This document shows positions 6,108 to 32,718 of a stretch of DNA of 64,000 nt, one piece after another. The stretch is from assembly GCA_022821085.1 (NCBI GenBank), contig JAJEEG010000006.1:1943330-2007329 (forward strand). Reading direction: 5' to 3'. A program made the translations under genes and the position numbers. The stretch is from Candidatus Latescibacterota bacterium. Lineage in GTDB: Bacteria > JAAXHH01. The notes under the pieces are model-generated. The model worked only from the letters and a program-made list of their open reading frames with translations. It did no database searches and was not told where the DNA came from. The number at the start of each line of letters is the position of its first letter. The first letter of the stretch is position 1.

Positions 6108-6677
6108 ATGGATATCCGCGCCGCCGTCTTCGCGGCCCGAAGCTATACGCCCATCCCGCTCCTGATCGCGGTCCTGATCATGGCCGAACCCGGCCCGATG
6201 ACCCTTATCGCCGGCGGGCTGCTAGCGCTGATCGGGGAATCCATACGCCTGTGGGCGGTCGGTTACGCGGGCTCCGCCACCCGTACCCGCCAGGTCGGAG
6301 CGCCAGCGCTCATCACCAACGGGCCCTATGGCCGGGTACGTAATCCGCTGTATGTCGGCAACTTCGTGCTCAGCCTGGGCCTGTGCGTCATGGCCTGGGC
6401 CTGGATGCCGTACATGCTGGGAATCTTCGTTGCCGCCTTCGGTATACAGTACGGTCTCATCGTATCGCTGGAGGAGGAAAGCCTGCGGAAAACCTTCGGC
6501 GCGCAATACGAAGCATACCTCGCCGCGGTACCCCGTTTCCTGCCTCGATTCACCGAATACACCGCGGGGAAACCGGCGCCTTATGACTTCGGCGCCGCCC
6601 TGCGCAGCGAGAGACGGACCTTTCAGTCCACGGCCGTAGTTGTGGCCGCCATCGCCGCGCGCTGGTACTGGGGCTAG
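6108..6677 (+). CDS. isoprenylcysteine carboxyl methyltransferase (ICMT/PEMT)-family membrane protein
   Basis: 189 residues with about four to five hydrophobic segments. The C-terminal half has the family core GPYGRVRNPLYVGNF, a hydrophobic hairpin, then EEESLRKTFGAQYEAYLAAVPRFLPRF. The RNP-Y-G block and E...L...FG..Y..Y...V.R..P form the SAM-binding signature of the ICMT/phospholipid methyltransferase superfamily. The protein is probably an inner-membrane methyltransferase, and its substrate is unknown. GGAGG lies about 12 nt before the ATG. It follows the sugar dehydrogenase gene by 45 nt and may be co-transcribed with it. Confidence 0.82.
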   Translation: MDIRAAVFAARSYTPIPLLIAVLIMAEPGPMTLIAGGLLALIGESIRLWAVGYAGSATRTRQVGAPALITNGPYGRVRNPLYVGNFVLSLGLCVMAWAWMPYMLGIFVAAFGIQYGLIVSLEEESLRKTFGAQYEAYLAAVPRFLPRFTEYTAGKPAPYDFGAALRSERRTFQSTAVVVAAIAARWYWG

Positions 6678-6707
6678 TCCGGATCGGACCACGCCGCCAG
6701 GCCGACA

Positions 6708-7268
6708 TTACGGTTTCGTTTTAACGCGGCTCATGCCGTTCAGGGACCGTTCTTGCATCGAGCACCGAAGGGGATCGCCGTTCTGCCCGGACGGTCCGGG
6801 CTGCGCCGGAGGTGCGGGCGGCTTGGACGGCTCGGACGGCTCGGGTGGCTCAGGCGGCTCGGACGACCGGGATGATGCCGGGTCCGTCGAGCTTGTCGGG
6901 TCCGTCGAGCCCGTCAGGTCTTCGCGGTCAGGGTGATCCAGGGGGTCCGGGTGATCCGGGTGATCCGCCGTTTCGGCAGCGGCGCCGGCGCCTTGCTGCT
7001 TATCGGACCGTTTCTGGACGCTCACGCCCGAGGTCCCGTGCAGAAGACTGAGCAACGCCACCAGTGCAACGAGGAGGACGACCGGCCACCAGGGCACGTT
7101 GGACAGCATACGCACCGAGTCCGGACCGGACTGGAACAGCAGACCGTAAAGCAGGATGGGACCGAGGATGATCAGCAAGGCAACGCCTACGACGCATACG
7201 ACCTGGGACCAGGCCGGATTGCGCTGCAGAAACCGCGTTATGCTCGATATTCCGTGTGCTCTTTTCAT
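6708..7268 (-). CDS. hypothetical membrane protein with low-complexity Pro/Asp/Glu/Ser tail
   Basis: 186 residues from the ATG at 7268. Two transmembrane segments (about 22-44 and 60-77) are followed by a roughly 100-residue hydrophilic tail. The tail is built of degenerate repeats such as DHPDHPDPLDHPD, STDPTSSTDPASS and EPPEPPEPSEPSKPP. No family is recognised. An in-frame ATG at 7304 (GAGG about 10 nt upstream) would add 12 residues and is equally possible. The frame stays open much further upstream, but that part overlaps hisB and is not protein-like. The tail repeats look like the product of slippage in GC-rich triplet tracts. Confidence 0.6.
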   Translation of the reverse strand: MKRAHGISSITRFLQRNPAWSQVVCVVGVALLIILGPILLYGLLFQSGPDSVRMLSNVPWWPVVLLVALVALLSLLHGTSGVSVQKRSDKQQGAGAAAETADHPDHPDPLDHPDREDLTGSTDPTSSTDPASSRSSEPPEPPEPSEPSKPPAPPAQPGPSGQNGDPLRCSMQERSLNGMSRVKTKP

Positions 7269-7455
7269 GGGTCGTTCCCGTGTAGCGAACGTGTATATTG
7301 GCATCCGTTTCCAACCTCTCACCGGGACGGATGCACATAAGTTCAAAAAGGCAATCATTGGGACCGGATGAAGGTTCGCCGGGGTAGGGCCGCACGGCCG
7401 TACACACCCCGGTAAAGCATGCCGGAACACACACCGGCACGCAGGCCGGAACCTC

Positions 7456-31302: not shown

Positions 31303-32316
31303 TCACGAATCCAGCGATTCGCTGTCGGAATACTCCCGAACCTCGCGTTTTCTGGGGTCCCGGAGAGAAACGACCTTGGTTCCGTTGATCGATTCGTTAT
31401 CCGGCAGTGCCGCTTCACCTTTCTCCTCGCCGGTCTGCGCCACGCTCTTCACCGACTTCAGGATTTCGCTGCCCGAAACGGCCTCGTTATCGGCGTCGTA
31501 ATAGTCGTACCAGGGCAGTCCGGATTCGGTGTATTGCAGGGCCGTAGGCGGTTCTGTCGGCGGACGCTCACCGGTAATCGCCATCCACTGGGCCGAATTG
31601 GCGATGGTAATGAAACACCGGACGGGATGCCGCTGGTCCCAGGCATCCAGGCCATAGTCGTCCTCGTAGATTTCCTGTCGCATGCGCCCGCCAGGTGCGA
31701 GGCCCATGCCTTCCTCCTGGGGACTTTGCATCGCCATCGGCGCCGCGTCCATTACATCATATAGTCTGACCCGCATCGCTTCATAGCGCTCCGCCTTCAT
31801 GGGATAGGCCGTTATCTGCAGACCGCCGTGCTGCGCCGCGCCGCGCACCTGCTCCTCGACGGTGTACCCTTTGCCCAACGGCATGGCCACGAACTGGCGT
31901 ATCATGCCCTTTTCGATGCAGTACCCGTCGAGCCAGGGCTGTTCGGGCAATACGAGGTAGTCCTGCGGATTGGTATTCAGATGGTTTATCCAGTTCTCGC
32001 CGGTGATCGCGCAGACCTTCCCGGTCGCGATCTTCAGTGCGAACGGATAGCTGCCGTAACCGCCGAAGTTCAGCCACATCGCCTCGGCCTGGAACATCGG
32101 CATGATCACACCACCCCTGCGGGCCCAATCGCCCGGCAGGCGATCCGCGTAGTCGTCCAGGTGACGAAGAGGGAAACAACCCAGGCCCGGGGGCAAGGGG
32201 TAATCTCTTCCATCGTCCGGGATGCGCAGCGTACGCTGAAACGAGATCGAACATCGTGCATGATCGTGGACTTCCGGGCATTGAATTTCCAGTTGGTCGT
32301 GCTCAAGGTAAATCAT
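31303..32316 (-). CDS. uncharacterised 337-residue protein paired with an XRE regulator
   Basis: Start ATG at 32316 with a perfect AGGAGG 6 nt upstream. No signal peptide or membrane helix. The N-terminal two thirds look like a compact enzyme or beta-rich domain, with QRTLRIPDDGRDYPLPPGLG, GVIMPMFQAEAMWLNFGGYG, ITGENWINHLNTNPQDYLV and PEQPWLDGYCIEKG. The C-terminal 70 residues are acidic and low in structure. I believe similar proteins occur widely under hypothetical names, but I cannot assign a family or activity. The gene begins 13 nt after the XRE regulator stop, so it is its operon partner. It lies in a lower-GC segment bounded by tRNA sequences. Confidence 0.75.
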   Translation of the reverse strand: MIYLEHDQLEIQCPEVHDHARCSISFQRTLRIPDDGRDYPLPPGLGCFPLRHLDDYADRLPGDWARRGGVIMPMFQAEAMWLNFGGYGSYPFALKIATGKVCAITGENWINHLNTNPQDYLVLPEQPWLDGYCIEKGMIRQFVAMPLGKGYTVEEQVRGAAQHGGLQITAYPMKAERYEAMRVRLYDVMDAAPMAMQSPQEEGMGLAPGGRMRQEIYEDDYGLDAWDQRHPVRCFITIANSAQWMAITGERPPTEPPTALQYTESGLPWYDYYDADNEAVSGSEILKSVKSVAQTGEEKGEAALPDNESINGTKVVSLRDPRKREVREYSDSESLDS

Positions 32317-32329
32317 CACTTTCCTCCTG

Positions 32330-32683
32330 TTACCATTCACCGTCCCGCACTTCGCGAACGATCCTTAGTATGGCGTGATCGGGCGCCTCCTTCATCTTAC
32401 GGATCATGTCCGCAAACAACCTCGGCCGCTTGCGGATGATTTCCTGCAGATCGCTCGATACCTTGCCCGCCAGGGCCAGCAGCACGTCCGGGTCCTCCCC
32501 CAGGTCCCGTGCCAGCTTTAACGTCGTGGCCTCGGACGGCGGCGCCACATCGCCACGCTCGATCTTGCTCAGGTAGGCCGGCTCGACCTCGATGCGATGC
32601 GCCACCTGCCGCAGGGAGAACCGCCTGTCTTGCTTCCGCAGGTCTTCGCGGCGGGTACGGATGTGATTGCCAAATTGTGTCAT
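32330..32683 (-). CDS. XRE-family helix-turn-helix regulator
   Basis: 117 residues. The N-terminal Cro/C1-type HTH (residues about 7-65) contains FSLRQVAHRIEVEPAYLSKIERGDVAPPSEATT. A C-terminal helical segment follows (LALAGKVSSDLQEIIRKRP onward, ending VREVRDGEW). XRE proteins with this tail often control a neighbouring gene in stress, toxin-antitoxin or defence-type loci. The ATG at 32683 is favoured because a consensus promoter ends right in front of it. A longer frame to 32827 would run across that promoter. No Shine-Dalgarno sequence is present, so the message is probably leaderless. Confidence 0.85.
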   Translation of the reverse strand: MTQFGNHIRTRREDLRKQDRRFSLRQVAHRIEVEPAYLSKIERGDVAPPSEATTLKLARDLGEDPDVLLALAGKVSSDLQEIIRKRPRLFADMIRKMKEAPDHAILRIVREVRDGEW

Positions 32684-32689
32684 GTATAG

Positions 32690-32718
32690 TATATAGTACA
32701 CATTTAGAAGACTGTCAA
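32690..32718 (-). promoter_or_regulatory. consensus promoter giving a leaderless mRNA for the XRE regulator
   Basis: On the minus strand a perfect TTGACA (32718-32713), exactly 17 nt, then TATATA (32695-32690). Only six bases separate the -10 box from the ATG at 32683, so the predicted transcription start is at or next to the A of the start codon. The TA-rich stretch TGTATAGTATATAGTACA over the -10 and the start is partly symmetric (TGTA...TACA) and could be the autoregulatory operator. Confidence 0.7.

Follow-up and report, generated by a model that had tools for sequence, protein, structure and literature searches.

A conserved two-gene unit of a predicted leaderless XRE regulator and a partner of an unnamed family, with a C-terminal peptide recurring in both families

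The two genes described here lie in tandem in a 64,000-nucleotide stretch of Candidatus Latescibacterota DNA, referred to below as the window (Table 1). The first gene encodes a small XRE-type regulator and the second a larger partner protein, and the gap between them is 13 nt. They are predicted to be one self-contained bicistronic two-gene unit. The start signals described in the original prediction are borne out by direct reading: the regulator is preceded by TTGACA, 17 nt, TATATA and 6 nt before the ATG, and an AGGAGG is present upstream of the open reading frame of the partner. Because the -10 hexamer is separated from the ATG by 6 nt, the predicted transcription start is the A of the ATG itself. 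A search of the 3.75 Mb genome for the exact string TTGACA-N17-TATATA gave three occurrences, and the backwards control gave none.

Table 1. Features of the two-gene unit, in window coordinates
Feature	Position	Strand	Reading
-35 hexamer TTGACA	32713..32718	(-)	direct reading; kept in 19/28 non-redundant relatives, 34-39 nt from the start codon
-10 hexamer TATATA	32690..32695	(-)	17-nt spacer to -35; 6 nt (CTATAC) to ATG
Predicted transcription start	at or a few nt from 32683	(-)	promoter geometry
Putative operator TGTGTACTATATACTATACA	32683..32702	(-)	degenerate palindrome over -10 and the A of the ATG
XRE/HTH_31 regulator, 117 aa	32330..32683	(-)	no Shine-Dalgarno; C-terminus VREVRDGEW
Codons of conserved C-terminal peptide VRDGEW and stop	32330..32350	(-)	[DE]GxW in 60/60 XRE orthologues
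Shine-Dalgarno AGGAGG of partner	32320..32325	(-)	direct reading; about 6 nt to partner ATG
Partner protein, 337 aa, unnamed family	31303..32316	(-)	tail eroded here (VREYSDSESLDS)

The regulator belongs to the XRE/HTH_3 family, with Pfam matches to HTH_31 (5e-9) and HTH_3 (1.5e-7) that both exceed the curated cut-off. Its top PADLOC profile is capH (E 3.6e-8), a match that reflects the generic architecture of small XRE proteins. When 25 genomes were searched, the orthologue was found as a single copy, located at the partner, in each of 16 genomes that carry the partner, and in none of the other nine, of which six are relatives without the partner and three have partners that lack the XRE gene. 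The remaining XRE matches, at 37-41% identity, belong to a different XRE type; these distant paralogues, four in number, are devoid of the C-terminal tail considered below.

Among 101 distinct partner loci, 60, which include nearly all bacterial copies of the partner outside Actinobacteria, carry an XRE orthologue immediately upstream on the same strand. Bacterial partners without it are mainly actinobacterial (all but one plasmid copy), with few others, such as those of loci L025 and L039; in Streptomyces the neighbours of the partner are varied and comprise no XRE gene. The XRE is also missing upstream of the partner in several viral contigs. An obligate pair is therefore not what the loci display. 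The original prediction had depended on the partner not occurring mostly without the regulator, and this holds in the clade of the window and fails in Actinobacteria. The distance matrices of the two proteins correlate with r = 0.85 (n = 58), the highest value among 2000 permutations being 0.34, although the correlation is partly due to species phylogeny. On a Miltoncostaea plasmid (L085), an XRE-type gene is situated directly downstream of a tailed partner, and its product ends in RDRSPAG, without the tail.

The partner had been described as a member of a family without a name, and the searches agree: it matches no entry of Pfam, NCBIfam, PADLOC or PHROGs and no PDB sequence, a Pfam scan of 61 family members gave nothing above chance, and a literature search with the partner motifs found no match. 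Relatives are present in genomes labelled Gemmatimonadota and Latescibacterota, in Chloroflexota including Caldilineaceae, and in Krumholzibacteriota, Planctomycetota, Pseudomonadota, Obscuribacterales and Streptomyces, as well as on a few large plasmids, in phage records and in IMG/VR contigs of up to 618 kb, some of which may be bacterial rather than viral. In the phyla sampled, the distribution is rare and patchy, with the partner found in 23 of 400 genomes of the Chloroflexota-centre phylum, 9 of 396 of the Streptomyces-centre phylum, 5 of 398 of the alphaproteobacterial-centre phylum and 9 of 392 of the Planctomycetota-centre phylum. The genus of the window has it in 8 of 12 genomes, where synteny is kept between an outer-membrane protein gene and a tRNA-Arg gene. 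A clean empty site was looked for in the sister genomes and not found, since the outer-membrane gene stands there in another context. Partner copies in L013, L034, L066 and L081 are frameshifted or interrupted, which fits either a dispensable gene or sequencing error. A sister species (G010, contig C3; L055 and L080) carries a second, partial partner-like frame of 319 aa, of which residues 56-169 alone match, at 68%, and which looks chimeric or decayed.

Two structural models of the partner were calculated. The first, from 35 sequences, had a pLDDT of 68.5 and found no match among PDB folds. The second was made for the orthologue of L016 from 61 sequences, four rows from annotated plasmid records being left out, and predicts, with a pLDDT of 87.6 and a pTM of 0.86, a protein that is mostly beta and whose tail is disordered. 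It likewise has no match among PDB folds (best E 0.03, TM below 0.25). A search of BFVD identified two Harvfovirus proteins, A0A3G5A0P2 and A0A3G5A5W8, and a Hyperionvirus ubiquitin-like-domain protein, A0A3G5A6D8, the three matches having E 2e-21 and TM 0.68 (Harvfovirus, the best), E 4e-18 and TM 0.72, and E 4e-9 and TM 0.46. These giant-virus proteins appear to share the predicted fold of the partner; they differ from it in being larger, in coming from viruses of eukaryotes and in being uncharacterised.

Beyond the pair itself, there are no conserved neighbours outside the genus of the window. A defence-island setting, which had been raised for the pair, was rejected for the window, where the neighbours are metabolic. 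Several individual loci have neighbours of other kinds. A gene for a DUF4268 protein, convergent with the pair, lies just downstream of it in L004 (4284-5447), L006 (6143-7258) and L017 (2213-3271); the L004 protein matches the Pfam family at 7e-36 and has a weak NucS/PD-(D/E)XK match. Two sister genomes of the window have this gene as an insertion that separates the pair from tRNA-Arg, and a relative adjoins the pair in a Caldilineaceae contig. A ClpP gene (Pfam 1.7e-80) precedes a tailed partner by 19 nt in a viral contig of 194 kb (L168, 3365-3973), and in L016 a ClpP-like SDH protease (6326-7399) is encoded near the pair. GmrSD is among the neighbours of the pair in L023. On the Bradyrhizobium plasmid NZ_CP096257.1 (L084, 72703-83512), a divergent, tail-less partner is accompanied by genes of an M12 metallopeptidase, a caspase-family protein and a trypsin-like protease, a setting that is conflict-system-like.

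The arrangement in front of the regulator is beyond chance, a design conserved in the relatives of the unit. A -35 element with at least five of six matches, 33-41 nt from the start, precedes 19 of the 28 non-redundant XRE starts (4.3% in shuffles), and the perfect hexamer at that distance is found in 12 of the 28 upstream regions, compared with 0.3% in shuffles. A Shine-Dalgarno match of 5 nt or longer is found at only 1 of the 28 XRE starts versus 32 of 41 non-redundant partner starts. A palindrome with at least eight of nine paired positions is present near the -10 element and start in 13 of the 28 regions (1.1% in shuffles). The promoter geometry, the absence of a Shine-Dalgarno site and the palindrome are kept from Gemmatimonadota-labelled genomes and Latescibacterota to Chloroflexota, Planctomycetota, Krumholzibacteriota and Pseudomonadota. 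With a promoter that would put the 5' end at the start codon and no Shine-Dalgarno site, the regulator has the sequence hallmarks of a leaderless gene, and its mRNA is probably leaderless or nearly so. The conservation across phyla supports the originally predicted combination of a leaderless start for the regulator and a Shine-Dalgarno-driven start for the partner.

The palindrome, a putative operator, has the family consensus TGTGTAsTATrTAsTACACA; it covers the -10 element and abuts the start codon. In Caldilineaceae it takes the form GTGTACTATGTAGTACAC immediately 5' of the ATG, and in a Planctomycetota-centre genome the form GTGTAGTATATAGTACAC. The window operator, in which seven of nine arm positions pair (counted by eye), is weaker. 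With up to two mismatches, the consensus was found in 9 of 13 genomes, almost always at the pair alone, with one extra weak site each in G060 and G065; the other four genomes have no match to the pattern at two mismatches. Since the operator is essentially one per genome, the XRE protein would be a dedicated local regulator, most likely an autorepressor. Repression rather than activation is suggested by the operator position, because a bound dimer would cover the -10 element and reach the start codon; the position is compatible with repression, short of proving it. A dedicated regulator-partner circuit, as had been anticipated, is thus upheld by XRE orthologues found only beside the partner, by an essentially single-copy operator and by the mirror-tree correlation given above.

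The operator palindrome and a C-terminal peptide common to the two protein families are the most informative features of the unit, and both were absent from the original prediction. The [DE]GxW end of the XRE proteins and of most partners is a new finding here. All 60 XRE orthologues end in this motif (DGDW in 36, DGEW in 14), and in Actinobacteria and viral contigs the motif V-x-[DEN]-G-x-W/F closes most partners, as in VEDGDW, VRDGKW or VREGEF. The partner tail is kept in 23 of 25 XRE-less actinobacterial partners versus 20 of 60 XRE-paired ones; in the window genus, as in many Chloroflexota, it is eroded to VREYSD... or VREMS... Among 5224 open reading frames of the partner loci, a single [DEN]GxW/F end lies outside both families, and it belongs to the gene directly upstream of the L069 partner. 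The L069 protein and that of L172, a second HTH-like type without a significant family, are both encoded directly upstream of the partner and both end in VRDGNW. Upstream proteins of a ribbon-helix-helix (RHH)-like type end in VRDGEW (L068), VRDGKW (L184) and VRTGKW (L062), an assignment with a weak basis: NikA-like at 0.001 for L062 and RHH_1 at 0.046 for L184 in Pfam, and for L068 no Pfam match and a likeness to L184 seen by eye. In these five loci the tailed partner starts about 20-180 nt after the upstream gene. As the tail is carried by XRE, RHH-like and HTH-like upstream proteins, unrelated DNA-binding-like proteins seem to have acquired the tail of the partner. Two viral contigs contain further tailed proteins. 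In one of 274 kb (L181, 3195-3995), the XRE encoded before the partner carries a fused HSDR_N-type domain (type I restriction, N-terminal) and still ends in VRDGKW; in the other, of 129 kb (L185, 136-384), an 82-aa frame with the end EVHDGDW precedes the partner by about 3.6 kb and is possibly another tailed protein of the XRE-partner system.

An unusual end peptide common to the regulator and partner families suggests that the regulator physically senses the partner. The simplest reading is that the tail would serve as a docking peptide, with the partner or a common receptor as its target, and a common degradation signal is the main alternative. Against docking stand the partner model, in which the protein's own tail is not placed in a groove and residues 318-324 have a pLDDT below 50, and the erosion of the tail in the window partner and in most XRE-paired ones.

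Taken together, the unit is best explained as a bicistronic, self-balancing sensor-effector circuit, a reading from comparative sequence evidence to which we give roughly even chances. What the sequences show are the architecture and its conservation, the operator with its near uniqueness, the co-occurrence of the two genes and the common tail; the leaderless start, repression and tail docking are inferred from these. A single promoter would drive both genes. The message for the XRE protein would have no leader or almost none; the protein would bind the palindrome over the -10 element and start codon and repress its own operon as essentially its sole target, and the partner would be translated from its own Shine-Dalgarno site. 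The [DE]GxW end of the XRE protein would dock on the partner, or on the site used by the partner's own similar tail, and the amount or state of the partner would set the level of free XRE available for repression, by which the circuit would balance itself. A wider version is put forward more tentatively: the unit may be a self-sensing module of a new kind, in which unrelated DNA-binding proteins (XRE, RHH-like and a further HTH-like type) have each received the tail of a widespread effector family, present it as a docking peptide and so read out the effector level, the XRE version being leaderless with its operator fused to the start codon.

The alternative that fares best, and that we nevertheless consider unlikely, is that the XRE protein serves a defence or conflict effector as its dedicated regulator, holding an antiviral partner low until infection, in the manner of restriction-modification control proteins or CapH. 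The capH profile, the frequent leaderless transcripts of control-protein operons (PMC4824078) and the nucleases (DUF4268 in L004, GmrSD in L023) or caspase- and trypsin-like proteases (Bradyrhizobium) among some neighbours agree with such a role. However, the capH match is to a small generic XRE regulator, the unit is without a metallopeptidase, cyclase, restriction enzyme or methylase, the neighbours in the window are metabolic and many copies are in viral contigs. Rather unlikely, too, is that the common tail is a degradation signal, through which one protease would set the lifetimes of regulator and partner without direct contact between them. Classical degrons include C-terminal peptides, the model leaves the tail disordered and ClpP-type proteases are encoded at L168 and L016, but most loci have no protease nearby and no ClpX or Tsp tag with a terminal Trp after DGx is known. 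A type II toxin-antitoxin system, with an XRE antitoxin encoded upstream that is also an operator-binding autorepressor and with the partner as toxin, is improbable. The unit resembles one in its predicted autoregulated two-gene operon with short spacing, its patchy distribution with several broken copies and an XRE fold that is frequent among antitoxins; against this, the partner matches no toxin family or fold, and strict pairing is not observed (60 of 101 loci), the partner occurring without the XRE in Actinobacteria and several viral contigs. The solitary actinobacterial partner counts against reading the unit as a simple toxin-antitoxin pair. Roles in defence or as toxin and antitoxin are possible and not favoured. 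That the regulator mRNA starts upstream, the promoter-like match being merely an AT-rich operator, is very improbable: a GTG in frame with the window ATG, 18 nt before it, would permit a longer protein, but the -35/-10 spacing and the distance to the start are kept across phyla without a Shine-Dalgarno site, and the conserved part of the protein opens with the M of MTQFG or MTFG.

The self-balancing circuit would tie an unnamed protein family, which spans many bacterial phyla, plasmids and large viral contigs and whose predicted fold reaches giant viruses of eukaryotes, to a dedicated autoregulator. Its common six-residue tail is a directly testable handle on regulator-effector communication, and the way promoter, operator and start codon overlap, conserved among the relatives, provides a clear comparative case for leaderless regulator expression in uncultured phyla.

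Several known systems resemble the pair in part. CapH of CapH-CapP regulated CBASS is the best PADLOC profile for the XRE protein and is an XRE autorepressor of its operon, as the regulator of the pair would be. The pair, however, is a two-gene unit among metabolic neighbours, has no CapP-type metallopeptidase, cyclase or other CBASS gene, and its partner has no PADLOC match. Type II toxin-antitoxin systems with XRE or RHH antitoxins share with it the autoregulated two-gene unit, as predicted here, and the exchange of unrelated DNA-binding folds before one partner family, and differ in that here the partner occurs alone, has no toxin fold and itself bears the tail of the regulator. The cI protein of phage lambda, expressed from PRM, is an XRE-type repressor on a leaderless mRNA and is autoregulated, which the pair is predicted to match; the pair has no phage switch, its partner of an unnamed family would be co-transcribed and its operator overlaps the -10 element and the start codon. 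The control (C) proteins of type II restriction-modification systems (C.PvuII, C.EcoRV, C.Csp231I) are also small HTH regulators encoded first, autoregulated at their own promoter, with the second gene on the same mRNA. Leaderless transcripts are common in C-protein operons (PMC4824078), which makes the originally suggested comparison apt as a way of working, both the leaderless transcript and the common mRNA being predicted from sequence in the pair. Membership does not follow, as the operon has no restriction enzyme or methyltransferase and its second gene has no family match. C proteins use paired C-boxes near the -35 element, whereas the pair has one palindrome over the -10 element and the start, and the C-terminal peptide common to regulator and partner is the pair's own feature.
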